36,640 nt of DNA from Rhizobium sp. Q54 (GTDB lineage: Bacteria; Pseudomonadota; Alphaproteobacteria; Micropepsales; Micropepsaceae): positions 1-36,640 of the forward strand of contig CAMAPL010000022.1 in assembly GCA_945860165.1 (NCBI GenBank), in the 5' to 3' direction. Position numbers and translations under genes: made by a program. The notes beneath the pieces were generated by a model, which saw only the letters and a list, made by a program, of their open reading frames with translations, was not told the DNA's origin and searched no databases. Shown in pieces: positions 12,511-29,141 of this stretch. Numbering within the stretch: the stretch's first letter is position 1; every line of letters starts with the position of its first letter.

Positions 12511-13088
12511 GCATCCGGCAAGGCGTTTTGAGCATCGGGGTCCTGCTGGCGCTGTGCACCACAGTGGACGCGCGGGAATTCACCAGTACCGTCAGCGAAA
12601 GCGGCGCGATCACGCGGTTGCGCCCCGAGTTCAAAATCCCGGACGAGCCAAACCAGCTTTTTTATGTCCAGCGCTCGCCTAATTCCAACACCGTGATTTA
12701 TACCGCCCGCCTCGATGCCGGCGGCGCGCTCGACCGCCGCGAACCGGTCGAGGGCTTCTGGCGCAAATTCAATATCGATGGCACCAAACAGCCGCTCAAC
12801 ATTATAGAGCGTATGATGGCCTATGGTGTGCGGACGGACCGGATGGGTACGAACGGTCCCGTCACCTTCACCATCGCCGCCCTGCCGGAGCGCAAGATTT
12901 CCGTTAGTCTGGACGGCAACAAGCGCCCCCAGGCCCTGCTACAGGTCGGCGCCCGCACGATCAGGCTGGCCTATGTCTACCTGCATGTGGTGGAAGGCGG
13001 CTTTATGCCTGATGTTCCAGAACTGGACATTTTCGGCACCGACATCGCCAGCGGAAAGGCGGTTCACGAAAACCTTGTCCAGAAATGA
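12507..13088 (+). CDS. Secreted DUF4833-like protein
   Basis: A 193-residue protein with a signal peptide (1-22, ending VDA before REF), so probably periplasmic. The mature part carries NQLFYVQRSPNSNTVIYTA near 50-68, a PVEGFWRKFNIDG segment and an ER-MAYGV segment, which match the pattern of the DUF4833 family as I remember it. That family has no known function. The start ATG overlaps the esterase stop (ATGA). It converges with lptG, with one base between the stops. No catalytic residues can be proposed. Confidence 0.7.
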   Translation: MSIRQGVLSIGVLLALCTTVDAREFTSTVSESGAITRLRPEFKIPDEPNQLFYVQRSPNSNTVIYTARLDAGGALDRREPVEGFWRKFNIDGTKQPLNIIERMMAYGVRTDRMGTNGPVTFTIAALPERKISVSLDGNKRPQALLQVGARTIRLAYVYLHVVEGGFMPDVPELDIFGTDIASGKAVHENLVQK

Positions 13089-14322: not shown

Positions 14323-15650
14323 GAGCGCCCCAACTTCGGCCGGACGAAACCGTTATGTCCCCATGCGGTCAGGGTCAGAACCAGCCAGGCAACCGCCGCA
14401 TAGAGCAGCAAAACCGGAAGCATCGCCCCGGCTACACTCTGCGGCACGATATTGGTAATCAGCCACTGACCGGTCAGGTTCACCGACATCAGCGCCAGGC
14501 AGGACAGCGGCAGAGCGAACCAGTTGGTAAGGCGGGTGGTGAGCGCAACGCCCAGCAGCGCCACCAGCGGCGCCAGAAACGCCAGCAGGCTGCGCGAAAA
14601 ACGCTCGGCCAGCAGGCGCATCTGCACCGCGCGCGCCTGCGCTGTACTGTGGCCTGGCACGAACAATTGCTCGAACAGGGTCTGCTCGACTGCAACGCTG
14701 CCGCGCGACCCGAACGGCAGCAGCTGGTCCACCATCATCATCTGGCTCATATCGCGCACCTTCATGTTGATGCGCGGCACGTTCTTGAGTTCGTCGAGAC
14801 AGTTGGGACATTTCAGCAGATCTGTACGCGGCGCGGCGCCATTCGCCGTTGTCATCGGATTGTCGTCGGCAAAGGTATGCGAGGTGAAATCGTTGAGATT
14901 GAGCACAATACGCCCTGACCGGTCGGGGCCATCCAGCCGCGCCTGGCCAGCAGTGACCACGCGCGAGGTTTGCGGCGCGATCCGCTGATAGACGAACACG
15001 CTGCGATCGGGAAGCTGCCCCGAAGCATCGATCACCGGCACGGTGCCGGGGGCGCTGGGCGGCGGCGCGCCATCTTTCACGTGATCCATGGCATAGGCGA
15101 CATAGGAGGGAAAATAATAGAACTCGCCCGTCGCCACGCCCTTTTTCAGCGAGCGCAATTCCGAACTGAACAGGATGGAGCGTTGCGTATATCGCGCCAA
15201 AGGATCAACGAGTCCGGAGCCCAATATGCTCACCATCTGCCCGGCCAATGCCACCACCAGGATCAGGGCGCTTAGCTGATAGGGGCCCAGCCCCGAGGCG
15301 AACAGCACCAGCATCTCGCGGTTTTCCCGCATCCGCAGCAAGGTGGCATAGACCGCCATCAGAATGGCAATCGCAAGTGCCAGGTCGAAAATCTCTGTGC
15401 TGCTGAACATCAGGATCAGGGAGATGCCAAACAGGTCGGCCTCATGGCGCACCGCGTCCTTGAACACCCAGGTGAAATGCTCGGCCAGGAAGATGGCTTC
15501 GATCAGCACGATCACCGCCAGCGCCTGTCCCGCGACGCTGCGGAAAAAGCCGCGCGCATAATCGCCGCGCACGAAAGATTTCAGCATCGTCTTCAGCCCC
15601 GTCGCCGGGGCCGGACCGCCGATGTCAGGCAAGTCTGAGGGTGACGCCAT
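14319..15650 (-). CDS. lptF: LptF-type permease of an LPS-export-like ABC transporter
   Basis: A 443-residue partner permease. Helices lie at about 43-65, 75-100 and 120-145, with the NREMLVLFASGLGPYQL coupling-helix segment between the second and third. A periplasmic domain runs from about 150 to 330 and three more helices follow. Two features are odd: a soluble N-terminal extension of about 30-40 residues before helix 1, and a CPNC motif (KCPNCLDEL) in the periplasmic domain that could form a disulfide or bind metal. The start overlaps the lptB stop by one base (TGATG), so lptB-F-G is one coupled operon. No lptD, surA, pdxA or ksgA follows, unlike the common lptFG neighbourhood. Confidence 0.85.
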   Translation of the reverse strand: MASPSDLPDIGGPAPATGLKTMLKSFVRGDYARGFFRSVAGQALAVIVLIEAIFLAEHFTWVFKDAVRHEADLFGISLILMFSSTEIFDLALAIAILMAVYATLLRMRENREMLVLFASGLGPYQLSALILVVALAGQMVSILGSGLVDPLARYTQRSILFSSELRSLKKGVATGEFYYFPSYVAYAMDHVKDGAPPPSAPGTVPVIDASGQLPDRSVFVYQRIAPQTSRVVTAGQARLDGPDRSGRIVLNLNDFTSHTFADDNPMTTANGAAPRTDLLKCPNCLDELKNVPRINMKVRDMSQMMMVDQLLPFGSRGSVAVEQTLFEQLFVPGHSTAQARAVQMRLLAERFSRSLLAFLAPLVALLGVALTTRLTNWFALPLSCLALMSVNLTGQWLITNIVPQSVAGAMLPVLLLYAAVAWLVLTLTAWGHNGFVRPKLGRS

Positions 15651-16366
15651 CAGAGCCGGAACGCCTCGCCCAGGTAGACCCGGCGTACCGCCTCATTGGA
15701 GACGATACTGGCTGTTTCGCCTTCCGCCAGCACGCGCCCGTTATCAATCACATAGGCGCGGTCGACGATGCTCAGAAGTTCGCGCGCCTTGTGGTCGGTG
15801 ATCAGGACACCGATGTCGCGATCCGAAAGATGCCGGATCATGGCGATGATTTCCTCGGTGGCATGTGGATCGACACCGGAAAAAGGCTCGTCGAGCATGG
15901 CGAAGCTGGGTTCGCAGGCCAGCGTTATGGCGATCTCGCAGCGGCGGCGCTGGCCGCCCGACAATTCGCCTACGCGCTTCGCGCGTTCTGCGTCCAGCCG
16001 GAATTCCGCGATCAGTTCGTCAAGCCGCACCTTGCGCGACGCGGCGTCCGGCAAACGCGCCTCCAGCACCAGCAGGATGTTCTGCTCCACCGTCAGCCCA
16101 CGCGGCACGAAGGGCGCCTGCGGCAGATAGGCGACGCCGAAACGGGCGCGGTCATAGAAGGGCATGGTGGTGATGTCGTGATCGTCGAGCAGGATCGTGC
16201 CGGCATCCGGCGTCACCATTCCGGTCAGCATATTGAAAGTCGTGGTCTTGCCCGCACCGTTGGGACCGAGCAGGCCCACGACTTCGCCGCGCTCAAGCCG
16301 CAGGGTCACATCTTCTATGACCCGGCGTCCGGCAAAAGCCTTCACCAGATGCTGCGCAGAAAGCAT
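15650..16366 (-). CDS. lptB: LptB-type ABC transporter ATPase
   Basis: A 238-residue cytoplasmic ATPase that would power lipid extraction by the LptF/LptG pair. Walker A is GPNGAGKT at 34-41, the Q-loop Gln83 is in YLPQ, the signature LSGGQ is at 135-139, Walker B with Glu160 is in FAMLDEPFSGVDP, and the switch His192 is in LITDH. The C-terminal VRRVYLGEAFRL is the LptB hallmark. The frame is open to 16546, but the ATG at 16366 is preferred: MLSAQHLVKAF is where the family starts, and a GAAGAGA lies upstream. The usual lptC-lptA-lptB-rpoN context is absent here, so this may be a second, specialised copy. Confidence 0.9.
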   Translation of the reverse strand: MLSAQHLVKAFAGRRVIEDVTLRLERGEVVGLLGPNGAGKTTTFNMLTGMVTPDAGTILLDDHDITTMPFYDRARFGVAYLPQAPFVPRGLTVEQNILLVLEARLPDAASRKVRLDELIAEFRLDAERAKRVGELSGGQRRRCEIAITLACEPSFAMLDEPFSGVDPHATEEIIAMIRHLSDRDIGVLITDHKARELLSIVDRAYVIDNGRVLAEGETASIVSNEAVRRVYLGEAFRL

Positions 16367-16764: not shown

Positions 16765-18039
16765 ATGACGACGCATTTCGCGGCCGCCGAACACCCGGTC
16801 ACCCCGGCCGAAAACGAACCTGAGCGCAAAAGCGTCGTTGACGATTTTGCCGGCTATCGAGCGCTGCGCCGCCGCATCAACGACCTGCATGTCAGCGGCC
16901 TAGACCTGCCCTTCTTCCATCCGCGCGACGGCGTCAGCCACAGCGTGATCCGCCGCGACGGCGTGAGCCTGATCAGTTTCTCGGGCTACAACTACCTGGG
17001 CCTGAACGGCCATCCTGCCGTCACCGCCGCCGCCAAGAACGCGATCGACAAGTACGGCACTAGCGCCTCGGCCAGCCGCATCGTCGCCGGCCAGATCGAG
17101 CTGCATGGCGAGCTGGAACAGAAGCTGGCCAAGTTTCTCGGCACGGACGACGCGCTGATCTTCATCAGCGGCTACCTAACCAATGTGAGCGTTATCGCGC
17201 ACCTGCTCGCCCGTCCCGACGCGGTGATCTACGATTCCGGCGCCCATAACAGCATCATTACCGGCGCGCGCCTGTCGGGCGCCAAGACTTTCATCTATGA
17301 GAATGGCAATTGGGACGAGCTCGACGCGCTGCTGACGCGCGAACGCGGCAATTTCCGCCGCGGGCTGATCGTGGCCGAAGGCGTCTACAGCATGGACGGC
17401 CAAATCCTGGACCTCGCCAAGCTATCCACGATCAAGAAGAAGCACGATGTACTGGTGATGGTGGACGAATGCCATTCCTTCGGCGTTGTCGGCCAGACCG
17501 GCCGCGGCGTCTGCGAAGCCGCCGGCCTGCCGGTGGACAGCATCGACGTTTACATGGGCACATTGAGCAAGACCCTGGCCTCGAGCGGTGGCTATATCGC
17601 TGGGGACGCAGGCCTGATCGAGTATATGCGATTCCTCTGCCCCGGCCTGATCTTCAGCGTCGGCCTTTCGCCCGCCGACACCGCCGCAGCCATAGCTGCG
17701 TTGGACATCCTGGAACGCGAACCGCACCGCCCCAAGCGCCTGCGCGAACGCGCCAGGTTTTTCCGCAAGGTCGCGCGCGAATACGGACTGTCCATTGGCG
17801 GAGATGAGGAATCTCCTGTCGCCTCTCTGATCGTGGGCGACGACAGGATGGCAATGATGCTGTCCCGCAACCTGCTGGCATACGGCATCGAGGTTCAGCC
17901 CATCGTGCGCCCGGCCGTGTCGGCCACCACGGCGCGGCTGCGCTTCTTCCTCACTGCCAACCATACCGAGGAACAGATACTCGAAACGGTGCCGTTGGTG
18001 GCCCGTGAGCTGGAAAAGCTGCGCCGCAGCGCCGATTGA
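16765..18039 (+). CDS. Alpha-oxoamine synthase, serine-palmitoyltransferase-like
   Basis: A 424-residue PLP enzyme of the alpha-oxoamine synthase family (serine palmitoyltransferase, KBL, BioF, ALA synthase), which condenses an amino acid with an acyl thioester and releases CO2. The catalytic lysine is Lys269 in GTLSKTLASSGG. Asp234 and His237 lie in VDECHSFG, and His161 is in DSGAHNSI, all at expected spacing. Further hallmarks are FSGYNYLGLNGHP (72-84) and YGTSASASR (97-105). GAGGGG precedes the ATG. It heads a coupled operon with two glycosyltransferases, and an SDR reductase and a GNAT-type acyltransferase lie in the same block, which favours a sphingolipid role. Alternatives are an acyl-carrier-protein-dependent synthase of another lipid or a BioF/KBL paralogue; no biotin or threonine genes are near. 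Confidence 0.8.
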   Translation: MTTHFAAAEHPVTPAENEPERKSVVDDFAGYRALRRRINDLHVSGLDLPFFHPRDGVSHSVIRRDGVSLISFSGYNYLGLNGHPAVTAAAKNAIDKYGTSASASRIVAGQIELHGELEQKLAKFLGTDDALIFISGYLTNVSVIAHLLARPDAVIYDSGAHNSIITGARLSGAKTFIYENGNWDELDALLTRERGNFRRGLIVAEGVYSMDGQILDLAKLSTIKKKHDVLVMVDECHSFGVVGQTGRGVCEAAGLPVDSIDVYMGTLSKTLASSGGYIAGDAGLIEYMRFLCPGLIFSVGLSPADTAAAIAALDILEREPHRPKRLRERARFFRKVAREYGLSIGGDEESPVASLIVGDDRMAMMLSRNLLAYGIEVQPIVRPAVSATTARLRFFLTANHTEEQILETVPLVARELEKLRRSAD

Positions 18040-19190
18040 GCTTCGTGCCTTCCGACCGGCCGATCCGGGTGGCGCTGGTCACCAGTTCCTACAACTTCAT
18101 CCCGGACGGCGTTGCCCTTACCCTCAACCGCCTGGTGGCGTATCTGGAATCACGCGGCGTCGAGGTTCTGGTTTTCACGCCCACCGCGGCCACGCCGGCC
18201 TTCGCGCATGAAGGTGCCATCGTGTCGGTGCCCTCCCTCCCCCTGCCCGCGCGCCCCGAGTATCGCCTGGCGCTGGGCCTACCCGGCACTGTGAAACGCC
18301 AGCTGCTGGATTTTGCGCCGGACATCATCCACATCGCCGTACCCGACATGCTCGGCCATGCCGCGCTCAGGCTGGCGAAGAAGCACGGGATTCCCGCCGT
18401 GGCGTCCTATCACACACGCTACGAGACCTATCTGAAGCACTATTGGTACCTGTCGCCGCTGGAAGGCCTGCTGAAGCGCATCCTGCGCCGCTTCTACGGC
18501 GCCTGCCGCGAGGTCTATCTGCCATCGGACTCCACGCGCGCCGCGCTGCTGGCCAATGGATTGAGAGACAATTTCAAGCCCTGGCCGCGCGGCATCGACA
18601 TGGCGCGCTTTGCGCCCGACAAGCGCAGCGCGCAATGGCGCGCGCAGCATGGCATCGGCGCGGACGAGCTGGTGATCCTGCATGTCTCGCGGCTGGTGCG
18701 GGAGAAGCGGCTGGACACGCTGACGAAGGCCCTGGGCCAGATCACCGTGCCGCACCGGGCCGTCATTGTCGGTGATGGCCCGGACCGCGACTTTGCGCGG
18801 GAAGCGCTGCCCCATGCGATTTTTGTCGGCTTCTTGGGCGGCGAAGAACTGGCCAGGGCCTATGCCTCGTCCGACATCTTTGTTTTCCCGAGCGACAGCG
18901 AAAGCTTTGGCAATGTCACGCTGGAAGCCATGGCCTCGGGTCTTCCTTGCGTCTGCGCCGACGCCACCGGCAGCCGTTCGCTGGTGGCCCCCGGCGAAAC
19001 CGGGTTCCTGGTGGATGCTGACGATCCCGTCGGCTTTGCTGACAAAATCTCGGCGCTGGCAACAGACGCCGCTCTGCGCCACCGCATGGGCCAGGCGGCC
19101 CATGCCCGCGCCCTCAGTTTCAGCTGGGACGAGACGATGGCCCGGATGCTGGGCTATTATAGGACGCTGCTGTCCAGGACCGTGCCGTGA
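18036..19190 (+). CDS. GT4 glycosyltransferase (lipid-sugar type)
   Basis: A 384-residue GT-B-fold retaining glycosyltransferase of family 4. The N-terminal domain carries NFIPDGVALTLNRL and the SYHTRYETYLKHY segment (124-136), like that of SQD2/MgtA-type enzymes that add sugars to lipids. The nucleotide-sugar site shows Arg219 and Lys224 (SRLVREKR), GDGPD at 246-250 and the E-x7-E pair Glu289/Glu297 (ESFGNVTLEA). No membrane helix is present, so it acts at the cytosolic face. The start is a TTG at 18036, overlapping the upstream stop by a few bases; a GTG at 18045 is an equally possible start. The overlap with the SPT-like gene suggests it may glycosylate that pathway's lipid. Confidence 0.88.
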   Translation: MSFVPSDRPIRVALVTSSYNFIPDGVALTLNRLVAYLESRGVEVLVFTPTAATPAFAHEGAIVSVPSLPLPARPEYRLALGLPGTVKRQLLDFAPDIIHIAVPDMLGHAALRLAKKHGIPAVASYHTRYETYLKHYWYLSPLEGLLKRILRRFYGACREVYLPSDSTRAALLANGLRDNFKPWPRGIDMARFAPDKRSAQWRAQHGIGADELVILHVSRLVREKRLDTLTKALGQITVPHRAVIVGDGPDRDFAREALPHAIFVGFLGGEELARAYASSDIFVFPSDSESFGNVTLEAMASGLPCVCADATGSRSLVAPGETGFLVDADDPVGFADKISALATDAALRHRMGQAAHARALSFSWDETMARMLGYYRTLLSRTVP

Positions 19191-20359
19191 AGATTGTTGA
19201 CGTCTGTGAGTTCTATTCGCCGACCGGTGGCGGCGTGCGGCGCTACATCAACCAGAAACTGGCGCTGGCGCATCGCTTCGGCCATGAGCTGACGGTGATC
19301 GCGCCCGGCGCGGAAACCCGCATGGAAAAAGCGCATGGCGGCACCATCGCCTGGGTCAAGAGCCCGCACCTTCCCTTCGACCGCAATTACCGGATGTTCT
19401 GGCGCGCGAAAGATGTGTGGCGAGTGCTGGATGCACTGCAGCCAGACCTGGTGGAAGGCTCGTCACCCTGGCGCGGCGGCTGGCTGGCGGCGCGCTGGAA
19501 AGGCTCCGCCACCAAGGTCTTCTTTATGCATGCCGATCCGGTGGCAGTCTATCCCCAAACCTTCCTGGGCGGATTGCTGGGGCCAGAGCGGGTGGACCGA
19601 TTGTTCGGCTTTTTTTGGAATTATCTTAATCAGCTCAACAGCAAGTACGACGCCGCCATCGTCACCAATCCGGCGCTGGCCGAACGCTTCGCCGGGTTCG
19701 GACTGGAGAATATCCAGGTGGCGCCCTTCGGCGTCGAGCGCAGCAAATTCTCGCCCGACTTCTATGACGTCACGGCGCGGCGCGAGATGCTGGCGACCTG
19801 CGGGCTGGACGAAGATGCTTCGCTGCTGATCGCGGTGGGCCGCCACCATCCCGAAAAGCGCTTGCGCACCATCATCCAGGCGGTCACCCGCGCCCAGAAA
19901 AGTCGCAAGATCGGGCTCTATATCGTTGGTGACGGATTCTTGCGCGCCTCGGTGGAACGCTGGGCGCAAGGTGCGCAGCATGTCTATGTCGCGGGCCAGA
20001 TCAACGATCCCGAACAGCTGGCCACCGTGATGGCCAGCGCCAACGCGCTGATCCATGGCTCGGCGGCGGAAACCTTTGGGCTGGTGCTGGCGGAAGCCTT
20101 GTGTTCCGGCACGCCGCTAATCGTGCCTGATGCCGGCGCGTCGGCCACCTTTGCCGGCCCCGGCTATGCGCAAACCTATCGCACAGGCGATGCGGTGGAC
20201 GCGGCGGGCGCCATCCTGCGACTTCTGGCGGGGGACCGCGCTACCCAGTCACGCGCGGCCACTACCGCGGCGGACGCCCAAGTGTTCAATGTCGAACAGC
20301 ATTTCGAAAAGCTGTTCGAGATCTATGAGCGGATCGTCGCCGAACGTTCCACGCGGTAA
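19187..20359 (+). CDS. GT4 glycosyltransferase
   Basis: A 390-residue GT-B glycosyltransferase of family 4. The acceptor-side loop is SPTGGGVRRYIN (11-22). The donor site shows Lys224 in RHHPEKR, GDG at 248-250 and Glu295/Glu303 in ETFGLVLAEA. It starts at a GTG overlapping the previous stop (GTGA), so it is the third gene of the SPT-like operon. The 3' end overlaps by 37 bases, tail to tail, with the GT22 gene on the other strand (20323-20359). Its sugar and acceptor are unknown; it probably extends the glycan started by the preceding enzyme. Confidence 0.88.
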   Translation: MKIVDVCEFYSPTGGGVRRYINQKLALAHRFGHELTVIAPGAETRMEKAHGGTIAWVKSPHLPFDRNYRMFWRAKDVWRVLDALQPDLVEGSSPWRGGWLAARWKGSATKVFFMHADPVAVYPQTFLGGLLGPERVDRLFGFFWNYLNQLNSKYDAAIVTNPALAERFAGFGLENIQVAPFGVERSKFSPDFYDVTARREMLATCGLDEDASLLIAVGRHHPEKRLRTIIQAVTRAQKSRKIGLYIVGDGFLRASVERWAQGAQHVYVAGQINDPEQLATVMASANALIHGSAAETFGLVLAEALCSGTPLIVPDAGASATFAGPGYAQTYRTGDAVDAAGAILRLLAGDRATQSRAATTAADAQVFNVEQHFEKLFEIYERIVAERSTR

Positions 20360-21843
20360 AGCGTGTACCAAGTGAGCGGCAGCAGCTTTAGCCAGCCGTG
20401 ACGGGCGGCGAACGCGGTATAACCCTGAATGTAACGCGTCCCTGCCGCGCCAAAACCAAAACGCGCCAGCGGAAATTCCGAATAGAGCAGCGTGACTACT
20501 GCATCGGCTGGCGTGGCGGGCGGCGGGACCGGACTGTTCGACAGAAGATAGATCGGACCCTGATCCAGCAACCCCTCCAAATGCATCGGGCTTCGCAGCT
20601 TCTCCGAACGGAAACCGGCCCGCCGATACATGGGATAGGACTGGAAAGGCGCGGCGAAACTGTAGATGGGGCCGGTGACATGGCGATAGAGATACTGCGC
20701 CATCGGAATGTGCGGACGAACCCCGAAGGGATACAGCGCGAAATAAATCATGCCCGCCAACGACAGGACGGCCATGGCTTTGGCAGCAATGGAATTGCGC
20801 CAGTTCCAGACGCGCATGAAAATACCCTGCCAGCGCAGCAGGCGCGGTGAAAAACCCAGCACCGGAAACGCCGTCGCTAGGATGGCGAGCGGGAACAGGA
20901 AGCGGGCTTCCTTGTGCGCCACCACCATATGCAGCAGCACAAAGGGGATGGTCGCCCAAGTCAGGACATGGCGCGGGTTGCGCAGCCACATCGCCGTCAT
21001 GCCGGCCATCAGCACCAGGGTGATGGCGAAGAACAGCTGCGCCGGCAGCAGGTACAAATACGCAAAGACTGGTTCGCGGCCAAAGCTTTTGGCGGCGACG
21101 CCCTGCACGATATTGACTTGGAAATAATCCCAGGGCGGAAACACCCAGGCGCCGTAACCCCAGCGGTTCGCCAGTGCGCCCAGCACCAGCGCCGCCAGAC
21201 CTCCGCCCACGAACGCCGCCAGCCCGGCGGCCCGGACACGGGCAATCACGGCCAGCCAGGCGAACAGGCCCAGCCCCAGCATCGCGGTCTGATAGCGCGC
21301 CTCGAATGCCAGCCCGCATAGCAAGCCGGACAAAGCGAGAAACCGGATGGATTTTCCGCGCATCGCGAGCGCCACAGCAATGGCGAACAAGGCCGCGGAC
21401 AGGGTTTCGGAAGAGGTGCGCACAAACAGATAGGGCAGGAAGCCGAAGAACGGCAGATACAGCGCAAAGGCGCGCTTTTCAGCTTCGTCCTTCAGGGTTT
21501 CCAGCACGGCGCGCGCAAAGATCGCCAGCGCAACCGCGCAGAACAGCCCCGTCACCAGCCGCAGCACGATGACGATCGCGGACATATCCTGCAGGCCCAA
21601 CCACAAGATCGGCTTGGCAATCAGGAAATAGAGCAAAGGCTGGAGCCACGGCCGGATGCGGGCGTCAAATTCCCAGGGCAGTTCCGACGCCGGGGTGATG
21701 CCCAGCTTGTGGCTCATGAATTCGAGCACCTGATAATGCTCGTCCGGAAAATAGAAGGTCTGACTGAACCAGGCGGTAACGATAGTGACCCCGGCAAGGA
21801 TGGCGAGACTGCGCCGCAGGATGCGTGTCAGGTCAGGAGACAC
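20323..21843 (-). CDS. GT22 (PIG-B/Alg9-like) membrane mannosyltransferase
   Basis: A 506-residue polytopic membrane protein with about ten hydrophobic helices. The first loop holds FYFPDEHYQVLEF (30-42), with the Asp-Glu pair conserved in GT22 mannosyltransferases, followed by WEFDARIRPWLQP. A downstream HKEARFLFP matches the HKEERF-type motif of PIG-B and Alg9/Alg12. In eukaryotes these enzymes add mannose from dolichol-phosphate-mannose to GPI anchors or N-glycan precursors in the lumen. Bacterial members presumably use polyprenyl-phosphate sugars on the periplasmic side. The ATG overlaps the stop of the GT4 upstream by 11 bases. It is the last gene of the leftward operon. Confidence 0.83.
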   Translation of the reverse strand: MSPDLTRILRRSLAILAGVTIVTAWFSQTFYFPDEHYQVLEFMSHKLGITPASELPWEFDARIRPWLQPLLYFLIAKPILWLGLQDMSAIVIVLRLVTGLFCAVALAIFARAVLETLKDEAEKRAFALYLPFFGFLPYLFVRTSSETLSAALFAIAVALAMRGKSIRFLALSGLLCGLAFEARYQTAMLGLGLFAWLAVIARVRAAGLAAFVGGGLAALVLGALANRWGYGAWVFPPWDYFQVNIVQGVAAKSFGREPVFAYLYLLPAQLFFAITLVLMAGMTAMWLRNPRHVLTWATIPFVLLHMVVAHKEARFLFPLAILATAFPVLGFSPRLLRWQGIFMRVWNWRNSIAAKAMAVLSLAGMIYFALYPFGVRPHIPMAQYLYRHVTGPIYSFAAPFQSYPMYRRAGFRSEKLRSPMHLEGLLDQGPIYLLSNSPVPPPATPADAVVTLLYSEFPLARFGFGAAGTRYIQGYTAFAARHGWLKLLPLTWYTLYRVERSATIRS

Positions 21844-22933
21844 GCGCCCTCACAAGCTGATCGAACCAGTCCAGAAATGCGCGCGCGCTGATCTGCGGCG
21901 CGAACGGCATGGCCAGGGGGCGCAGCTTTTCCAGCGGCGGACGCGGCTTTTCGCAAAGCGCGGCCAAGGCCACGGCGAGATCGGCGGGCGCGCGCGAAGC
22001 CACCACGCTACCGGATTCGGGAATCGTTAGAACTTCATGCACCAGGTAGGAGCAGTCGGTTGTCACTACGGGCGTGCCGTGCGCCAAAGCCTCGACCGCC
22101 ACCGCCGGGCCGCCTTCATAGCGCGAAGTTACCAGTAAAGCATGGGAATGGGCGTAATATGGCGTGATGTCGTGCACATCGCTGAGCAGCGTGACTTTGT
22201 CCTGCAATTGCAGCATCGTGATTTTTTTCTCCACCTGCGGGCGCTCTGCGCCGTTGCCCAATAGGGTCAGATGCGCAGGATGAATCCGGTTCAGCGCCGA
22301 GATGGTGTCCAGCGCCAGTCCGACATCCTTCTGCGGTTCCAGCCGGCCGGCCCAGACGATGCGCCACACGCCATCATCAAGCCGATGCGGTGCCGTCGCT
22401 ACGGCGGCGATGGCATTGAAGGGTGGACGCAGCATGACCACCGCTTTTCCCGGCGCCAGCGCAGCTACCTCACGCGCCAGGCCATGGTTCATGGCCGCAA
22501 AGCCGTCCACGGATTGCGCAAAATAGCGGTAAAAGGGCTTTATCAGCAGGCCCAGGATGCCGTCCGGCAAAGGCGGGTTGGAAACTTTCTGCACGATCAC
22601 GCCCGGAAAACCGGCGCGGCGCATGCCACGTGCCAGCGGCAGATGAAAATTGCCGGGCAGGAAGACAATGTCGGGGCGCAATTCCGCCAACTTTGGCCCC
22701 ATGGCCCGCCCCAGCCCAAACCGTGACACGAGTGTGCGTGGCATCGGCGGGTCTAGCACCACCACCTCAACCCGTGGATCGACCCGCTCGAACAAGCCAC
22801 CTTCAGTCGTGCCGCACAAGATGGTGACCTCGTGGCCTGCATCGGTCCAAAGCCGGGCGAAGGTGACGGCAACACGTTCCGTCCCGCCCCGGAAGAAGTC
22901 ATGCATGGCGATAACGATTCGCTGGGCGGTCAT
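21833..22933 (-). CDS. GT4 glycosyltransferase
   Basis: A 366-residue GT-B glycosyltransferase of family 4. The N-terminal FFRGGTERVAVTFARL (13-28) is the acceptor-side glycine loop. The donor site includes Arg197 and Lys202 (AGRLEPQKD), GNG at 226-228 and the pair Glu273/Glu281 in YEGGPAVAVEAL. No signal peptide or membrane helix is seen. The start overlaps the stop of the GT39-like gene (ATGA). It is the third type-4 transferase in the block, and the only one in the leftward operon. Donor and acceptor cannot be read from sequence. Confidence 0.88.
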   Translation of the reverse strand: MTAQRIVIAMHDFFRGGTERVAVTFARLWTDAGHEVTILCGTTEGGLFERVDPRVEVVVLDPPMPRTLVSRFGLGRAMGPKLAELRPDIVFLPGNFHLPLARGMRRAGFPGVIVQKVSNPPLPDGILGLLIKPFYRYFAQSVDGFAAMNHGLAREVAALAPGKAVVMLRPPFNAIAAVATAPHRLDDGVWRIVWAGRLEPQKDVGLALDTISALNRIHPAHLTLLGNGAERPQVEKKITMLQLQDKVTLLSDVHDITPYYAHSHALLVTSRYEGGPAVAVEALAHGTPVVTTDCSYLVHEVLTIPESGSVVASRAPADLAVALAALCEKPRPPLEKLRPLAMPFAPQISARAFLDWFDQLVRARVS

Positions 22934-24612
22934 GGCAGGCGCTCGAAAATGGCGATGGGTTCGGCCAGGCTGTCATGGATGCGAACCGGCGCCCAGAAGC
23001 GGCTGTCATAGCGCGCGACATGCACCAGCCGGTATCCCAGCCTACCTTCTTCCAAGCCTGCGAAATAGCGGCGCGCATCGATATCGCGGAAAGCGTCCTG
23101 CTGCGTCCTAGGATAGATGCGGCCCGCTTTCAGCGGCACGGCTTCGCGCAGATAGCGCCGCACCCAGTTACCGTTAAGGATAATGAATTTCGGATCGCGC
23201 CACGCCGAAAATGGCTGCTTCAACTCGATGACTTCGGGTAGCGGATTGCGCAGCTTCAGTTCGCCCTGGCCGATCCGGCTCACCCGCGCCGTGACAGGAA
23301 ATCGCGGCTGGAAAATATTCTGGCCGTAGATTTCAATCGTGTCGCCGGGCCGGACATGCGCCGCCATCCAGCTTTCCGCGTCATAACGCGGGTCCAGCAG
23401 CATGGCGGCATTGACGGCGATGGCTTGATGCAGGGCGAACAATGCGGTCACCGCAAGCACAATGCGCGCGCCCACGGCCAGCCAGCGCCGGGCATGAAAC
23501 GCCAGATACGCCGCCGCAATGCCGATATAGACGGCGCTGAAGACCGCCTGCGGCAACAGAAAACGATGGTCTGTGCGCAGTGCCGAAAAATTAAAGCAGA
23601 GGATGAAAGAAATAATCGCCAGCGCCGGCAACAGGCCCGCCACCCATTTCTCGCTGCGGAAGCGCGACAGATGCAGGCCCAGTCCCAACGCGGCCAGCAG
23701 AACGGCAACGACGCCATATCCGCGCAGGAAGAAACGCGCCATGTCCCACAGCAGCGCCGCCCATCCGGCGGGTCCCTGGACATATTGGGCATAATCCTGG
23801 CTGGCAGGACCGGCAAGGAAGGTGAGGCGCTTGGCAAAACCGCCGGGATTGGTGATGGCGCCGTCCACCAGCAGCAGCGCGAACAACGACAGAGCAGAGG
23901 CCATCAGCAGGGTGGTGAGAATCGCGCGGATATGGCGCCGCGGCCAAGGTTCAGCCGCGAACCAGGCCAGCAGGAACACCGGCAGACTTACGGCGAACAG
24001 GGCATAGGCCTGATCCTTGGTCGCGACCGCGCCAGCGGCCAGCAGCGCCGCCCACCAGAACTGTTTGAGCTGCTGCGAGATCACCGCGCGCATACAAAAC
24101 ATCAGCGACAGCGACGACCAGAAAAGATAGGGCACATCCAGATTGCTGACCTGGCCGTAATAGGTCAGCACCATGCCAAGGGTGCAGGCCCCCGCCGCGA
24201 ACAGGCCCGCCCGCGCGTCTGAGACCAGCCGTGCCATTTCTCCGACGCACCAGATGATGCCCATCGACAGGATTAGGTTCAGCAGACGCGCCACCACCGC
24301 GAAAAATGTCATGGTGCCGGGTTTGGTGAATTCCGCGATCACGTCAGCTTGGGTGAAAGACGGCGCCTGCAATAGCGCGATCGCGATTCCGGGCAAGGTC
24401 AGGATCGCCAGCACAAAGGCATGCAGTGGCGGATAGGTGAAATAGGACCCTGGCGTATAGGTCAGCGCCAGTGCGGTGAGGAAATTGCGCGGCGCAAAAC
24501 CGTCATTGTCCCAGCCATCTGACGCCGGCAGGCCCCAAAACAGGCCGGTGATCCGCAGCGCCGCGGCGACGAACAGAATCCAGGCCAGCGGCGAGCGGAG
24601 CAGTGCGCGCAT
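22930..24612 (-). CDS. GT39/ArnT-like polytopic membrane glycosyltransferase
   Basis: A 560-residue protein with about eleven hydrophobic helices followed by a soluble C-terminal domain of roughly 150 residues. The first periplasmic loop contains SDGWDNDGFAPRN (31-43), with the acidic residues expected for a GT-C polyprenyl-phosphate-sugar transferase, and YPPLH follows. The general pattern resembles PMT/ArnT family 39, which move a sugar from a polyprenyl-phosphate donor to lipid or protein. The open frame extends far upstream, but the ATG at 24612 overlaps the previous stop by one base (TGATG) and MRALLRSPLAWILF is a natural membrane start. Substrate unknown; in this block a lipid acceptor is likely. 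Confidence 0.78.
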   Translation of the reverse strand: MRALLRSPLAWILFVAAALRITGLFWGLPASDGWDNDGFAPRNFLTALALTYTPGSYFTYPPLHAFVLAILTLPGIAIALLQAPSFTQADVIAEFTKPGTMTFFAVVARLLNLILSMGIIWCVGEMARLVSDARAGLFAAGACTLGMVLTYYGQVSNLDVPYLFWSSLSLMFCMRAVISQQLKQFWWAALLAAGAVATKDQAYALFAVSLPVFLLAWFAAEPWPRRHIRAILTTLLMASALSLFALLLVDGAITNPGGFAKRLTFLAGPASQDYAQYVQGPAGWAALLWDMARFFLRGYGVVAVLLAALGLGLHLSRFRSEKWVAGLLPALAIISFILCFNFSALRTDHRFLLPQAVFSAVYIGIAAAYLAFHARRWLAVGARIVLAVTALFALHQAIAVNAAMLLDPRYDAESWMAAHVRPGDTIEIYGQNIFQPRFPVTARVSRIGQGELKLRNPLPEVIELKQPFSAWRDPKFIILNGNWVRRYLREAVPLKAGRIYPRTQQDAFRDIDARRYFAGLEEGRLGYRLVHVARYDSRFWAPVRIHDSLAEPIAIFERLP

Positions 24613-25559
24613 CACGCCCTGCCCCGCTTGCGAAACTGCTCCAGCGCCCAGGGCAATCCCGCCACCACTGTCATCAGCCCCAGATCGGCGGCGGCCAGGA
24701 TCACCAGCACGGTGGCCACCGGCGTGACTGGCAGATTGGCCATGCCTGCCGCCGCGATGCCGGCGCCGACATAGATAAGGTCCTTGTTGGGCACCATGGG
24801 CAGGCGGGTGACCACCAGCCGCAGTGCCACGAATTGCAGGCAGGCGACAGCGGTGGGCAGCGCGCCCGACAGATACCACAGGCCGAATTCCACCGTCAGC
24901 ACCGACAGGCTGCGCAGGAAATGGATGCCGAAGGTGGCGGCGATCTGGGTGCGGCTCAGCACCGTCACCTTGCGATGCGCCAGCACCAGAATGGCGCACA
25001 GCCACAGCGGCACCGATCCCACCGCGATATAAAGCCAGAGATTGCCCGCCACGGCGGCAGGGATTTGCAGGCCGCCGGTCGCCATCAGCATCAACGCCAT
25101 CACCCACACCATGGCCAGGCCCGCGCCCGCCGACAGGACATTGCTGTCCTTGATGGCGTGGATCAGCATGCCCGGCGGCAGCATGAGGCGGGCCTGCGCC
25201 CAGAAATAAAAGAAGACCTCGCCCGAATAATCCAGCATCGCGCTGTTGAGAAACCGCTTGCGCAGGATCACCGCCAGCGGCGGTGCATTCTGCGCGCCCC
25301 ACAGATTGCGATAAACCATGAAGTCACCCAGCGGCTGTAGGAAGAACTGCACCACCAGCATCACATAGAAGCCGAAATTGCCGGGCCGCGCCGCCCACAT
25401 GTCGCGCCAGCCCAGCTCGCTCAGCCGGTAGCCGACATAACCAAGAAGCACCACCGGAAACAGCCAGCGCAGAATATGGATCAGGCGTACCGCCCAAGGG
25501 CGCGACGCCAGGAAGGAGGGAAGCGCCGACTGCACGACAAGGTCCGGAACGCCGCTCAT
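24612..25559 (-). CDS. Polytopic membrane protein, UPF0104/AglD-like
   Basis: A 315-residue integral membrane protein with about eight helices and no soluble domain. The arrangement, and the RFLNSAMLDYSGEVFFYFWAQ stretch between helices, recall the membrane domain of lysylphosphatidylglycerol synthases (UPF0104), which acts as a lipid flippase in MprF. The similarity is by pattern only and is not strong. The start overlaps the SDR stop (ATGA), and its own stop overlaps the next start. Sitting between a reductase that would act in the cytosol and a transferase that would act outside, it is a candidate flippase for the lipid intermediate. That role is inference. Confidence 0.6.
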   Translation of the reverse strand: MSGVPDLVVQSALPSFLASRPWAVRLIHILRWLFPVVLLGYVGYRLSELGWRDMWAARPGNFGFYVMLVVQFFLQPLGDFMVYRNLWGAQNAPPLAVILRKRFLNSAMLDYSGEVFFYFWAQARLMLPPGMLIHAIKDSNVLSAGAGLAMVWVMALMLMATGGLQIPAAVAGNLWLYIAVGSVPLWLCAILVLAHRKVTVLSRTQIAATFGIHFLRSLSVLTVEFGLWYLSGALPTAVACLQFVALRLVVTRLPMVPNKDLIYVGAGIAAAGMANLPVTPVATVLVILAAADLGLMTVVAGLPWALEQFRKRGRA

Positions 25560-26308
25560 GCGCGGCCGAGGATTGCCCGCACCAACGCGCGCGGCAAAAG
25601 ATTACTGACGGCGCGGATCACCGCGAACTGCCACGGCACCACGATGCGGCGGGCGCCTTTGGCGATCTTGCGGATAATGATCGCGGCGGCGGCATCAGCG
25701 GTCATCAGGAACGGCTTGGCCTGGGGGACCTGACGGCTCATCGCCGTGTCGATAAAACCCGGCGACACCAAGGTCACACGGACATTGTGTTTGGCCATGC
25801 GGATGCCGAGCGCCTCGGCGAACATGGCAAGCCCCGCCTTGGTGGCGGCATAGGTCGGCGCCATGGGCAGCGGGTAGGATTCGGCGATGGAGCCGACCAG
25901 CACAATATGGCCCCCACCCCGCTGGGCCATGACGTCGGCCATCAGGCTCGCCCCGACCACCGGCGAAACAAAGTTCACTTCCGCGGTGGCGCGCGAGGCC
26001 TGCGGCGCTTCGGCGCGCGCACCGTCGCGCACGATGCCGCCCAGGCCAGCATTGAAGATGGCCAGATCAATCGGCGCGCACGCATCGCTGGCGGAAAGAC
26101 GCGCGATCACCCCGTCAATGTCGCGAATGTCGAAGGCATCCACCGTGCAGGCGGCGCCCAGCGCACGGCACTCAGCCGCCGCTTGATTCAACCGCGCTTC
26201 GTCGCGGCCCCATAACAGCAGCGTCACGCCGGCGCGCGCATGGGCGCGAGCCAGTGCCGCCCCAAGGCCGCCGGATGCACCGGTAATCAGGATGGTCTTC
26301 GCAGACAT
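25556..26308 (-). CDS. Short-chain dehydrogenase/reductase, 3-ketosphinganine-reductase-like candidate
   Basis: A 250-residue classical SDR. The cofactor motif TGASGGLG is at 9-16, NAG at 86-88, and the catalytic Ser140, Tyr153 and Lys157 are present. The C-terminal 30 residues (VPWQFAVIRAVSNLLP) are hydrophobic and could tether it to the membrane, as in 3-ketodihydrosphingosine reductases (KDSR/TSC10). The frame is open to 26479, but the ATG at 26308 gives the normal N-terminus. Beside an alpha-oxoamine synthase and an N-acyltransferase it is the obvious candidate for reducing the 3-keto product. SDRs are very diverse, so the substrate remains a proposal. It heads the leftward operon. Confidence 0.85.
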   Translation of the reverse strand: MSAKTILITGASGGLGAALARAHARAGVTLLLWGRDEARLNQAAAECRALGAACTVDAFDIRDIDGVIARLSASDACAPIDLAIFNAGLGGIVRDGARAEAPQASRATAEVNFVSPVVGASLMADVMAQRGGGHIVLVGSIAESYPLPMAPTYAATKAGLAMFAEALGIRMAKHNVRVTLVSPGFIDTAMSRQVPQAKPFLMTADAAAAIIIRKIAKGARRIVVPWQFAVIRAVSNLLPRALVRAILGRA

Positions 26309-26405
26309 GAATCGCGCCGTTATGACCCGCAAATGCGGCCTATTGCTTACTATCAAATCGGGGTGTCGGAAGCTATGGTGCGCCGCTTTCACGGGAAAAC
26401 CCGCC

Positions 26406-27548
26406 TTGAACGCCGTCCTCGACATCGTGCCGGTTCGGACGAAACGCCAATGGCGCGACTTCCACCATCTTCTCTTCAAGATCTATGCGGACGACCCGCA
26501 CTGGGTGCCGCCGCTGCTGCTGGAGCGAAAATTCCATTTTCAGCCCCACCACAATCCCTATTTTCAGCACGCACGGGCCGAATTCTTCCTGGCCTATCGC
26601 GGCGGTGAGCCGGTGGGGCGCATCACCGCCCAGATCGACCAGCTGCATCTGGAGCGCTATCATGATGCCACCGGCCATTTCGGTTTCATCGAAGCCATTA
26701 ATGACGCCGCCGTGTTCGCCGCGCTGATCGCCGCCGCCGAAGACTGGCTGAAGGCGCAGGGCATGACCCGTTCCATCGGCCCGGTGAGCTTTTCCATGTG
26801 GGACCAACCGGGCCTGCTGGTGGATGGCTTCGACACGCCGCCTTACGTGATGATGGGCCATTCGCCCCGCTACTATGAAAAGCACATCGTGGCGCACGGC
26901 TATCGCAAGGCCGAAGACCTGATCGCCTATCGTTATGGTCCCGACGCACCGGCGCAGACGCTGGAAAAGTTGCTCAAGCGCTCCATGCGCGGCGGCGAGG
27001 TCACGCTGCGCAACATCCGCATGGACAAGGCGCATTTCCGCGAGGAAGTGGACATACTGCTCGACATCATCAACGACGCCTGGTCGGACAATTGGGGTTA
27101 TGTCCCCATGACGCGCGCCGAGATCAACGAACTGGCCGGCATCCTCCGCCTGCTGCTGCGTCCCGGCGATGTCGCCATCGCCGAATATCAGGGCAAGCCC
27201 GCCGCCTTCAGCGCGGCCTTTCCCAATCTCAATGAAGCGATCTGCGACATGAAGGGGCGCCTACTTCCTTTCAACTGGATCAAGCTGCTGTGGCGCATGA
27301 AGGTGCGCCGCCCGAAAACCGGCCGCATGCCGATGATGGGCGTGCGCAAGGCGCTGCAGTCTTCCTCGATGGGTGCGGCACTGGCGCTGTCGGTCATCCA
27401 GTCGGTGCGCAAGTTCAATTTCGACCGCGGCGTGGTGGAGAGCGAGCTGGGCTGGATCCTGGAACGCAATGCCCGCGTCCGCCATGTGATCGAGATGGTG
27501 GGCGGTGTGCCTTACAAGACCTACCGCGTCTACGAAAAGCCGATCTAG
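26406..27548 (+). CDS. GNAT-fold acyltransferase, bacterial-ceramide-synthase-like family
   Basis: About 380 residues when started from the TTG at 26406 (LNAVLDIVPVRT); upstream in-frame ATGs at 26307 and 26322 give poor sequence and no clear ribosome binding site, so the start is uncertain. The segment FKIYADDPHWVPPLLLERK, then NPYFQHARAEFFLAYRGGEPVGRI, identifies the large two-GNAT-fold family sometimes misnamed dATP pyrophosphohydrolase in Alphaproteobacteria. I believe the Caulobacter ceramide synthase bCerS is in this family, though I cannot align it here. Further marks are SMWDQPGLLVDGF, NDAWSDNWG and a C-terminal GGVPYKTYRVYEKP. It is divergent from the SDR gene with about 100 bases between. 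N-acylation of a long-chain amine would complete a ceramide pathway. Confidence 0.72.
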   Translation: MNAVLDIVPVRTKRQWRDFHHLLFKIYADDPHWVPPLLLERKFHFQPHHNPYFQHARAEFFLAYRGGEPVGRITAQIDQLHLERYHDATGHFGFIEAINDAAVFAALIAAAEDWLKAQGMTRSIGPVSFSMWDQPGLLVDGFDTPPYVMMGHSPRYYEKHIVAHGYRKAEDLIAYRYGPDAPAQTLEKLLKRSMRGGEVTLRNIRMDKAHFREEVDILLDIINDAWSDNWGYVPMTRAEINELAGILRLLLRPGDVAIAEYQGKPAAFSAAFPNLNEAICDMKGRLLPFNWIKLLWRMKVRRPKTGRMPMMGVRKALQSSSMGAALALSVIQSVRKFNFDRGVVESELGWILERNARVRHVIEMVGGVPYKTYRVYEKPI

Positions 27549-27630: not shown

Positions 27631-28257
27631 ATGGCTTTCGACGACGAGTTGCGGGCCACCCGCATAGTTCCGGTGATTGTGATCAAGGACCTGGCCCATG
27701 CCGTGCCGCTAGCGCGCGCGCTGGTCGAAGGCGGCCTCAACATCCTGGAAGTGACATTGCGGACCGACGCCGCGCTGGCCGCCATTGCGGCCATCGCCGC
27801 CGAGGTAAAAGGCGCCATTGTTGGCGCGGGCACCGTCATCAATGCCGGCCAGTTTGCTGCTGCCGTGGATGCCGGCGCGAAATTCGTCGTCAGCCCCGGC
27901 ACGACGCAAGAGGTTGTGCAGGCTTCGCGCCAGCACAACACGCCGATCCTGCCCGGCGTGGCGACGGCATCGGAAATCATGCTGGGCCTTTCGCTGGGCC
28001 TTTCAACCTTCAAATTCTTTCCGGCGGAAACCAGCGGCGGCGCCCCGGCGATCAAGGCGCTGGGCGGCCCCTTCCCGCAGGTCCGCTTCTGTCCCACCGG
28101 CGGCATCGGCGCCAAGAACTTGAATGCTTACCTGTCGCTGCCCAATGTGATCGCGGCGGGCGGTTCCTGGATGGTGCCTTCGGACCTGAACGAGGCCGAC
28201 GCCTTCAGCTGTGCCGCCGTCATGGCCCGCGAGGCCCGGACCCTGGTGCAGCCATGA
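27631..28257 (+). CDS. eda: KDPG aldolase
   Basis: A 208-residue class I aldolase that splits 2-keto-3-deoxy-6-phosphogluconate into pyruvate and glyceraldehyde-3-phosphate. The Schiff-base lysine is Lys128 in FKFFPAE, and Glu40 in EVTLRT is the acid/base. GAGTV at 65-69 and PTGGI near 164 form the phosphate site. GGGGT lies just before the ATG. Its stop overlaps the kdgK start (ATGA). It serves the last step of the KDG branch, fed by mannonate dehydratase, and would also serve an Entner-Doudoroff pathway. Confidence 0.95.
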
Positions 28258-29141
28258 CCCTGGCCATCAGCATCGGCGAATGCATGGTCGAACTGCGCCC
28301 CGTCGAAGACGGCCACCTGCGGCGCAGTTTTGCCGGCGACGCCTATAACACCGCCGTCTATCTCAAGCGCAGCGCGCCCGACATCGATGTCGCATTCCTC
28401 ACCGCCACCGGCGACGAAAGCCTGAGCAATGCCATGGTGGAAACCTGGCGCGGCGAAGGCATCAGCGACAGACTGGTGTACCGTATCCCGGGCGAACGCC
28501 CCGCTCTGTACCTGATCGAGACCAACGCCAAGGGCGACCGCAAATTCCATTACTGGCGCAGCGACACGCCTGCAAGGGAATGGCTGCGGCTGTTGCTGGC
28601 GGCGGGCGGCGCCGATGTGCTGAACAAGGCGGATCTCGTCTATGTCTCCGGCATTTCGCTGGCCATCCTGGGCCATGATGATCGCCAGGCGGCCATCAAG
28701 CTGCTTGGCACGCTGAAGACTAAAGTGGCGTTTGATCCCAACATCCGCCCGGCGCTGTGGAAATCGATGGACGAAGCCCGCCACACATTCGAGGCAATGG
28801 TGAAGCTGGCCTCCATCGTGCTGCCCAGCCGCCAGGATTATCAGCTGATGTACGGCATGCACGATCCGCGAAACCAGATCGAATTCACCGCCACCCTGAC
28901 CGATGCCGAGATCGCCCTGACCTGCGACGAGGATGGCTGCCTGCTGCGCGCCGGCGACGAGATCACTGCTCTGCCCACCCAGGCGGTGGGGGTGGTGGAC
29001 ACGTCGGGCGCCGGCGATTCCTTCAACGGCGCCTATCTGGCGGCGCGGCTGAAAGGCAAACCCCCGCAAGAAGCGGTGAAGGATGGCTTGGCGCTGGCCG
29101 CCAGGGTGGTGGCCCTGCCTGGCGCGCTTATTCCGCGCTGA
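28254..29141 (+). CDS. kdgK: 2-keto-3-deoxygluconate kinase (PfkB family)
   Basis: A 295-residue ribokinase-family sugar kinase. The N-terminal SFAGDAYNTAVYLKR (25-39) is the substrate-binding region typical of KDG kinases. The C-terminal DTSGAGDSFNGAY carries the anion hole and catalytic Asp255. It phosphorylates KDG with ATP to KDPG, the substrate of Eda, whose gene it overlaps by four bases. The pairing eda-kdgK strongly supports the assignment. It converges with the beta-propeller gene, three bases between stops. Confidence 0.93.
   Translation: MTLAISIGECMVELRPVEDGHLRRSFAGDAYNTAVYLKRSAPDIDVAFLTATGDESLSNAMVETWRGEGISDRLVYRIPGERPALYLIETNAKGDRKFHYWRSDTPAREWLRLLLAAGGADVLNKADLVYVSGISLAILGHDDRQAAIKLLGTLKTKVAFDPNIRPALWKSMDEARHTFEAMVKLASIVLPSRQDYQLMYGMHDPRNQIEFTATLTDAEIALTCDEDGCLLRAGDEITALPTQAVGVVDTSGAGDSFNGAYLAARLKGKPPQEAVKDGLALAARVVALPGALIPR

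Follow-up and report, generated by a model that had tools for sequence, protein, structure and literature searches.

We analyzed a 36,640-nucleotide stretch of DNA (the window), which is the whole of contig C22 (CAMAPL010000022.1) of the 2.48 Mb genome of Rhizobium sp. Q54 (42 contigs, estimated 100% complete). Nine open reading frames (ORFs) at positions 16765-27548 combine an alpha-oxoamine synthase (AOS), a short-chain dehydrogenase/reductase (SDR) and an acyltransferase of the bacterial ceramide synthase (CerS) family with several glycosyltransferases (GTs) and a membrane protein (TM). A first-pass annotation, made from the sequence alone, had described nine overlapping genes for a ceramide-based glycolipid. 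This description was nearly right: the ORFs are real, contain no internal stops, are tightly packed and belong to the families named. However, they form two convergent operons, AOS-GT4a-GT4b on the plus strand and SDR-TM-GT39-GT4c-GT22 on the minus strand, with overlaps of 1-11 bases between genes, and the acyltransferase gene is separate, diverging from the SDR gene across a gap of about 100 bases. The GT count (three GT4, one GT22 and one GT39-like) was confirmed by Pfam. Missing from the annotation were the MprF-like membrane protein at 24612-25559 and an LptB/F/G operon directly upstream. The block thus extends to the left, with this divergent LptB-LptF-LptG operon (13090-16366) and a DUF4833 gene (12507-13088). 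The starts of GT39 (24612), SDR (26308) and LptB2 (16366) were assigned in this work, and the Pfam scan covered 20 window genes, up to position 29141. The features of the block are as follows.

12507-13088, plus strand: DUF4833 protein (PF16117, 106 bits), beta-rich, with a signal-peptide-like N-terminus
13090-14322, minus strand: LptG2, second LptF/LptG-family permease (PF03739, 129 bits, cut-off 27.9)
14319-15650, minus strand: LptF2, second LptF/LptG-family permease (PF03739, 69.7 bits)
15650-16366, minus strand: LptB2, ATPase of the second Lpt set (TIGR04406, 306.7 bits, cut-off 240)
16765-18039, plus strand: RkpG-type AOS, candidate serine (or other amino acid) C-acyltransferase (Aminotran_1_2, 159.5 bits)
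18036-19190, plus strand: GT4a, cytosolic GT4 glycosyltransferase (PF00534, 120 bits)
19187-20359, plus strand: GT4b, cytosolic GT4 glycosyltransferase (PF00534, 65.9 bits)
20323-21843, minus strand: GT22 (Alg9-like) membrane glycosyltransferase (PF03901, 113 bits)
21833-22933, minus strand: GT4c glycosyltransferase, a variable gene (PF13692, 86.6 bits)
22930-24612, minus strand: GT39-like (PMT_2) membrane glycosyltransferase (PF13231, 27.2 bits, just above the cut-off of 26.1)
24612-25559, minus strand: TM protein with an MprF-type lipid flippase fold (AF2 model and fold comparison)
25556-26308, minus strand: classical SDR, candidate 3-ketosphinganine (or 3-ketoceramide) reductase (PF00106, 135.6 bits)
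26406-27548, plus strand: bacterial CerS/YghO-family N-acyltransferase (YghO homology and tree; GNAT Pfam, 22.8 bits)

The acyltransferase provides the clearest link to ceramides. Over 379 residues it shares 42% identity with E. coli YghO (E 3e-103). Passages of PMC9386255 pair yghO with CC_1154, which is among the five genes that Caulobacter requires to make ceramide, and passages of PMC11324152 name the Caulobacter gene cerS. Of the 79 rows of a tree, 26 formed the group containing the window protein, 31 formed the canonical group and 22 were ungrouped; these two groups each lay on one side of a branch supported at 100/99. As judged by homology and by this tree, the protein is a member of the CerS/YghO family; the first-pass annotation had proposed this family, and the window protein indeed lies not far from CerS. 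Pfam alone is weak here, because the GNAT score of 22.8 bits (cut-off 20.7) is marginal, with no single stretch passing, and two close homologues fell short (one had no match, the other a GNAT score of 16.9). The only matches to the PDB were weak ones to a DARPin, which we take as chance.

The synthase contains H161, D234, H237 and K269, corresponding to the pyridoxal phosphate lysine and the histidine and aspartate residues of alpha-oxoamine synthases, so that the Lys269, His161 and Asp234 named previously are correct. Its description as serine palmitoyltransferase (SPT)-like holds for the superfamily and the catalytic residues but not for the lineage. Profile searches against SPT, KBL, BioF and ALAS, suggested as a check, reached no curated cut-off. 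The AOS scored 270.5 bits on NF047599 (cut-off 500), 318.3 on NF047600 (640) and 227 on NF047603 (670), the three SPT models, and 348.7, 314.8 and 232.2 bits on the BioF, KBL and ALAS models (cut-offs 426.45, 460 and 338.55, respectively). As a control, E. coli SPT cleared NF047599 with 599 bits. Pairwise identity was highest with the protein at the RkpG position of Sinorhizobium meliloti (43%), followed by E. coli KBL (38%), S. multivorum SPT (34%), BioF (32%) and E. coli SPT (31%).

Two trees gave a consistent picture. In the first (51 rows, several long end branches), the AOS and AOS2, a second form of the synthase found in relatives, grouped in a single clade (100/99), and 14 Rhodobacterial SPTs in another (100/100). 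In the second (42 rows), AOS, AOS2, the S. meliloti RkpG-position protein and synthases linked to polyketide synthases (PKSs) formed a clade (100/99) apart from the SPTs of E. coli, Sphingomonas and Sphingobacterium and from KBL, BioF and ALAS; the synthase therefore clusters with neither BioF nor KBL. The tests made here place it outside the SPT family. Since the AOS lies outside the SPT clade and below the SPT cut-offs, we infer rather than observe its specificity for serine. It is the one candidate SPT found in the genome, because the other 12 of 13 Aminotran_1_2 places comprise one ALAS, one BioF-like protein and ten without AOS or SPT similarity at E 1e-5. The AOS also retains the 'SR' and 'HSxG' positions as in SPTs, which may be meaningful.

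Alanine or glycine might be used instead, giving a 1-deoxyceramide-like N-acyl amino alcohol without the 1-hydroxyl, with glycosylation elsewhere or on another lipid. The placement outside the SPT clade, the spread of scores over the BioF, SPT and KBL models below their cut-offs and the identity to E. coli KBL (38%, against 34% and 31% for the two SPTs) are in keeping with such a product. However, five GTs would make a 1-hydroxyl useful. Moreover, the residue aligned with ALAS Thr83, presumably the position that limits the size of the amino acid, is a Ser, which SPT and BioF share, whereas ALAS has Thr and KBL has Val. The CerS partner and the Delta4-desaturase partner of some relatives are compatible with either product. 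We regard use of alanine or glycine as unlikely, and serine as the most likely substrate.

Two further identities were considered for the synthase and rejected. BioF was the top NCBIfam model, but the score was below cut-off, and the model scored about equally on SPT and ALAS: values of 311-439 were obtained on all seven AOS-family members scanned, including E. coli SPT (333) and the ALAS of this genome (332). A cysteate-C-fatty acyltransferase (sulfonolipid synthase) gave a weaker PDB match than S. multivorum SPT (164.9 vs 249.5 bits). The top rank of bioF, together with the many GTs, could suggest a lipopolysaccharide (LPS)/O-antigen or exopolysaccharide locus with a BioF- or KBL-like enzyme as a bystander. 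The lack of discrimination by the bioF model, the presence in the genome of its own ALAS and BioF-like genes, and the fact that AOS, SDR and CerS travel together make such a bystander scarcely credible.

The SDR displays the motifs GASGGLG and YAATK, which fit the GxxxGxG and YxxxK features of KDSR given in passages of PMC9278070. A KDSR-like hydrophobic tail had been proposed; the hydropathy scan does not bear this out, with no 19-residue stretch above 1.6 on the Kyte-Doolittle scale. No solved structure in the PDB matched the SDR at E 1e-22 or better. This reductase is a classical SDR, unlike the epimerase-type CerR of Caulobacter and E. coli. Elsewhere in the genome, CerR gave three matches of 29-33%, which we take to be general epimerases. 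Caulobacter CerR is described in passages of PMC11087976 as periplasmic and acting after CerS. The window SDR looks cytosolic, and because the reductase is of this different kind, the order of reduction and acylation may differ from that in Caulobacter.

The neighborhood was compared in AOS-centred pieces from relatives and in two surveys. The CerS-centred survey covered the best 80 of 202 confirmed CerS-family loci, with presence scored by fixed thresholds in pieces of at most 10 kb on each side of CerS. As these pieces are short and often end at contig ends, absences within single loci mean little. The class-wide survey searched 385 genomes with the AOS, and 16 of them had matches with an E value of 1e-80 or below; pieces around 14 of the 17 matching places were examined, the other three being the window's own place and two more.

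Much of the gene set recurs in L039, L040, L042 and L047-L050. The synthase of the window form is 77-88% identical in L039-L042 and L044, while L047-L050 carry AOS2, about 40% identical to it. The latter loci have no GT22 or GT4c and keep LptB2F2G2, DUF4833, GT4a, GT4b, GT39, TM, SDR and the GNAT protein (in L048 the LptB2 position falls beyond the piece examined). The AOS2 form is carried by Rhizomicrobium electricum DSM 21034 (L085), and Rhizobiales bacterium dw_265 (L067), whose locus is of the window form with a desaturase, is among the public matches to the block. Conservation of the neighborhood, which had been suggested as a check, was thus observed in both forms.

AOS or AOS2 was found in 22 of the 80 CerS-family loci. 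Around it, the classical SDR was present in 20/22, GT39 in 19/22, and GT4a, GT4b and TM in 18/22 each. GT22 was seen in 8/22, only in the window subtype; DUF4833 in 9/22, where the pieces reach that far; and a desaturase (DES) in 3/22. GT4c is replaced by another GT4 in L042/L064 and in L071. The recurrence of the set in these relatives and around the synthase in the 22 loci shows that the block is not a chance assembly.

AcpR, AasR and epimerase-type CerR were each detected in 0/22 of these loci at the thresholds used. Rhodobacterial SPT, present in 26 of the 80 loci, was accompanied by AcpR in 26/26, AasR in 21/26, CerR in 19/26 and an SDR of the window type in 0/26. No locus contained both kinds of synthase (0/80), and 32 had neither within the piece.

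These counts bear on the reading of the first-pass annotation, a plain sphingolipid cluster of the Caulobacter/Sphingomonas type. The CerS family is common to both, as are LptF/LptG genes adjoining the synthase. Indeed, the cluster of E. coli BL21(DE3) and Caulobacter crescentus (cerS, aasR, cerR, acpR, spt, lptF/lptG) resembles the window in its CerS family and in the nearby synthase and reductase, and in BL21 the LptF/LptG genes lie next to spt and are also a second pair. In contrast, the window synthase belongs to the RkpG clade, the reductase is a classical SDR, AcpR and AasR were not found, and the window has its own LptB, many clustered GTs and LptF2/G2 in separate clades. A Sphingomonas parapaucimobilis plasmid shares with the window a CerS-family protein (41%) and LptF/LptG near the synthase, lying there between spt and the CerS-family gene. 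It differs by a true SPT (47% identical to E. coli SPT), AcpR and a desaturase without a Lipid_DES match. Its gene order (L214:1425-11149) is epi-acpR-spt, an ATP-binding protein, lptF-lptG, a fatty acid desaturase and CerS. Streptomyces NBC_01001 and Aureispira also contrast with the window, their CerS-family gene being accompanied by a synthase nearer to E. coli SPT and an epimerase-type reductase. With the three partners at 0/22 and the AOS and LptF2/G2 in other clades, a plain cluster of the Caulobacter/Sphingomonas type is very improbable.

The class-wide survey pointed to another system. In 11 of the 14 pieces (L194-L203 and L206), a large PKS adjoins the synthase; in one scanned piece it has KS-AT-DH-ER-KR-ACP domains. 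The Sinorhizobium rkp-1 region is laid out in the same way (S. meliloti record L207). The names rkpA, rkpG, rkpH and rkpJ for the genes of this record are those we presume to apply; the gene order fits, and passages of PMC3557214 support them. The same passages propose that rkpA and rkpGHIJ make, modify and transport a lipophilic molecule, maybe a carrier or anchor of the K-antigen. The rkp-1 region (RkpA PKS, RkpG, RkpH and capsule genes) shares with the window the RkpG-clade synthase (43%) and a nearby SDR (31%). Unlike rkp-1, the window has no PKS, and CerS, flippase, GT4/GT39/GT22 and Lpt export replace the capsule genes. No ORF of the size of an iterative type I PKS is present in the window. 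No PKS-type acyl carrier protein (ACP) was found in the genome either: only two PF00550 matches were obtained, open frames of 107 and 128 codons, with a model that gives 47.7 bits on an RkpA-like PKS.

The trio AOS-SDR-CerS also occurs outside the group of the window, on an Acidisoma plasmid, in G357 (L205) and in G183 (L196). The plasmid of Acidisoma sp. PAMC 29798 (L211:9786-23938) has CerS (36%), SDR (44%) and AOS side by side, with no PKS in the 25 kb shown; its AOS is 54% identical to AOS2 and 40% to the window form. It differs in what follows, namely a sterol-desaturase family gene, two GTs, capsule genes, lipoteichoic acid-synthase-family genes and an ABC transporter. The order in L205 is AOS2 (53%), SDR (47%) and CerS family (35%), with no PKS match. 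L196 (1439-13890) is the only one of the eleven PKS-linked pieces with a CerS-family match; its order is PKS, AOS, CerS family (36% to YghO), SDR (36%) and a capsule gene.

The lipid could therefore be the anchor of a capsule or another long polysaccharide, as proposed for rkp-1, with Lpt and the GTs serving polysaccharide assembly. RkpG-type synthases do lie in capsule loci in S. meliloti, on a Pseudomonas plasmid, on the Acidisoma plasmid (with CerS) and in L194 and L196, where PF05159 capsule proteins are near the synthase. On the other side, the 20 window genes scanned (to 29141) include neither a PF05159 protein nor a capsule-type ABC exporter, the exporter is of the Lpt type, and five GTs fit an oligosaccharide. 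A capsule anchor appears improbable for the window.

Two features of the block are consistent with export of a glycolipid. For the TM protein, no Pfam family was found and Foldseek alone was not significant. Its AF2 model (pLDDT 82.6, from 25 aligned sequences) matched six MprF chains in VIA at Z 13.8-15.3 (rmsd 3.5-5.1 over 242-271 residues), the next row being at 6.2; Z values under about 13 are common for helical models. In its model, the TM protein thus folds like the MprF flippase, and it may act as one. YbhN was rejected as a homologue by sequence, hhalign giving 8% probability over 39 columns. The GT39-like protein, by its family, is of the type of enzyme using polyprenyl-phosphate sugars.

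The second feature is the Lpt operon. An LptF/LptG pair on contig C10 scores higher (PF03739, 214 and 207) than the window pair, another LptB on C26, 53% identical to LptB2, lies between an lptA-like gene and rpoN, and LpxC is on C12. Therefore LptB2F2G2 is a second, paralogous exporter in an organism that keeps its LPS genes. In the LptF/LptG tree (40 rows), window-type F2 and G2 each formed their own clade (100/100) on long branches; the BL21-type F2 group adjoined canonical E. coli LptF, and two alphaproteobacterial LptG2 rows lay apart. We read this tree as suggesting that the second Lpt sets were recruited separately. In AOS-centred pieces, each of nine relatives with the block has at least two of LptB2, LptF2 and LptG2. 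For Caulobacter, passages of PMC11324152 propose LptC2/F2/G2 for sphingolipid transport.

As for the acyl supply, an ACP and an acyl-ACP synthetase had been noted as not in the window. They are absent there, but the shortage extends further: no AasR orthologue was found in the genome (best matches of 25-37% over parts of the query), and the two ACP matches are the only ones, neither beside a synthase. The ACP on C19 was rejected as a partner, since its neighbors (a mannonate-dehydratase, a ThuA domain and one ORF without a match) show no link. Passages of PMC9386255 report that Rhodobacterial SPTs prefer acyl-AcpR. The window synthase would instead use CoA or a housekeeping ACP.

In six relatives (L040, L041, L063, L067, L072 and L076, of which L040 and L067 are probably one genome), a desaturase gene lies between AOS and GT4a. 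Two desaturase copies, both on the minus strand (L041:594-1550 and L144:1501-2436), were scanned and matched Lipid_DES, the sphingolipid Delta4-desaturase domain, with 41.5 and 36.4 bits (cut-off 23); nothing in the PDB matched at the limits used. By this domain assignment, we take the desaturase genes as independent support for a ceramide product in these loci. Of the 385 genomes in the class sample, G364 alone had DES matches at E 1e-50. It has two copies, one of which neighbors a CerS-family gene, LptF/LptG and a gene of the fatty-acid hydroxylase family. The piece with this locus (L178:4125-11033) contains LptF, LptG, a GT2/GT21-like transferase, the hydroxylase-family gene, CerS family and DES; no oxoamine synthase match was found in its 20 kb.

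Altogether, we propose, with a probability of about 0.7, that the genes of the locus produce a ceramide-type lipid bearing sugars, which is then exported to the outer membrane. The ceramide-type glycolipid of the first-pass annotation is supported mainly by the CerS-family acyltransferase, and also by its pairing with synthase and SDR and by the Delta4-desaturase genes of relatives; the SPT lineage given for it was wrong. Serine as the substrate, the sugars and the lipid itself are what we infer from the gene families. The AOS would condense a fatty acyl thioester and an amino acid, serine being the likeliest; the thioester would come from ordinary metabolism because no PKS, AcpR or AasR was found. 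The classical SDR would then reduce the 3-keto group, and the acyltransferase, whose family is established, would N-acylate the base to a (dihydro)ceramide, on which the Delta4-desaturase may act in some relatives. GT4a and GT4b would add sugars on the cytosolic side. Caulobacter Sgt1 and Sgt2, two sequentially acting ceramide glycosyltransferases according to passages of PMC6445935, are a possible functional parallel. The MprF-like protein, given its fold, may flip either the glycolipid or a lipid-linked sugar to the periplasmic face of the inner membrane, where the GT39-like protein and, in the window subtype, GT22 would add periplasmic sugars from polyprenyl-phosphate donors. Finally, LptB2F2G2, a paralogue of the LPS exporter, could extract the product, which would then travel to the outer membrane in parallel with LPS.

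Several observations weigh against this proposal. The AOS falls apart from the SPT clade and stays below every SPT equivalog cut-off. RkpG, the named protein closest to it, belongs to a proposed capsule-lipid pathway, and the SDR is just 31% identical to the RkpH-position SDR. In the tree, the window LptF2/G2 stay separate from F2/G2 of the E. coli BL21 type. In CerS-centred pieces LptG2 was found in 9/22, LptF2 in 5/22 and LptB2 in 0/22, counts kept low by the distance of about 10 kb between CerS and the window-form Lpt genes, which places the latter at the border of the piece. The window genome itself gave no Delta4-desaturase match. Some close homologues of the synthase are not accompanied by all of these genes: on its 3.8 kb contig, L043 (64% identical) has an SDR of 30% and a CTP-transferase gene; L193 (60%) has an SDR of 31% and no CerS-family match within 20 kb; L073 has GT4a, GT4b, SDR and CerS without GT39, TM or Lpt2 in 18 kb; and L088 has SDR and CerS only. 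Moreover, much of the evidence comes from metagenome-assembled genomes.

The locus is a new form of bacterial sphingolipid locus. Among the open-access papers listed by our searches, none described it or an RkpG-type synthase paired with CerS, subscription papers being mostly outside that search. The results suggest that bacteria assembled ceramide synthesis and export at least twice from different parts, with CerS alone in common. Such producers would escape screens that require SPT, AcpR and CerR in combination. The Lipid_DES-like gene in the clusters of relatives predicts sphingosine-type bases in bacteria. An RkpG-type synthase beside CerS, as in L196 and Acidisoma, predicts a sphingoid base and gives a handle on the rhizobial rkp-1 lipid. 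More tentatively, and at somewhat less than even odds, RkpG/RkpH-type enzymes may make sphingoid bases overall, the K-antigen lipid being a sphingolipid-like, polyketide-built anchor. The window branch, freed from the PKS and coupled to CerS and a separately recruited LptB2F2G2, would then be a second, independently assembled route to outer-membrane glycosphingolipids, some members Delta4-unsaturated as in animals.

The DUF4833 protein at the left end of the block is probably periplasmic. Its AF2 model (pLDDT 69.9) gave no fold match, and with this low confidence and a best VIA row of Z 3.7, a reading as an additional LptA or LptC was not supported. At the right end, genes for a KDPG aldolase and a PfkB-type kinase (27631-29141) adjoin the block, as they do in L061, L062, L067, L068 and L070. 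This pair was not seen in AOS2-form loci and probably belongs to unrelated sugar-acid metabolism.

Other loci showed further arrangements. In G046 (L204:10023-18108), AOS2 lies with DUF4833, an inositol-1-phosphate synthase domain protein, a weak SDR, LptF, an LptG-like gene and a GT4, and is possibly an inositol-bearing variant. Planktothrix agardhii plasmid p3 (L208:3515-11113) encodes a PKS with a fused RkpG-type oxoamine synthase domain, and two genes annotated as glycosyltransferase family 39 are nearby. In G003 (L165:1378-8879 and L046:7507-8571), a DES-like FA_desaturase without Lipid_DES and a GT21-family transferase (PF13506, 138.5 bits) are on the same contig as an AOS2-like synthase; we take GT21 to be the ceramide glucosyltransferase family.

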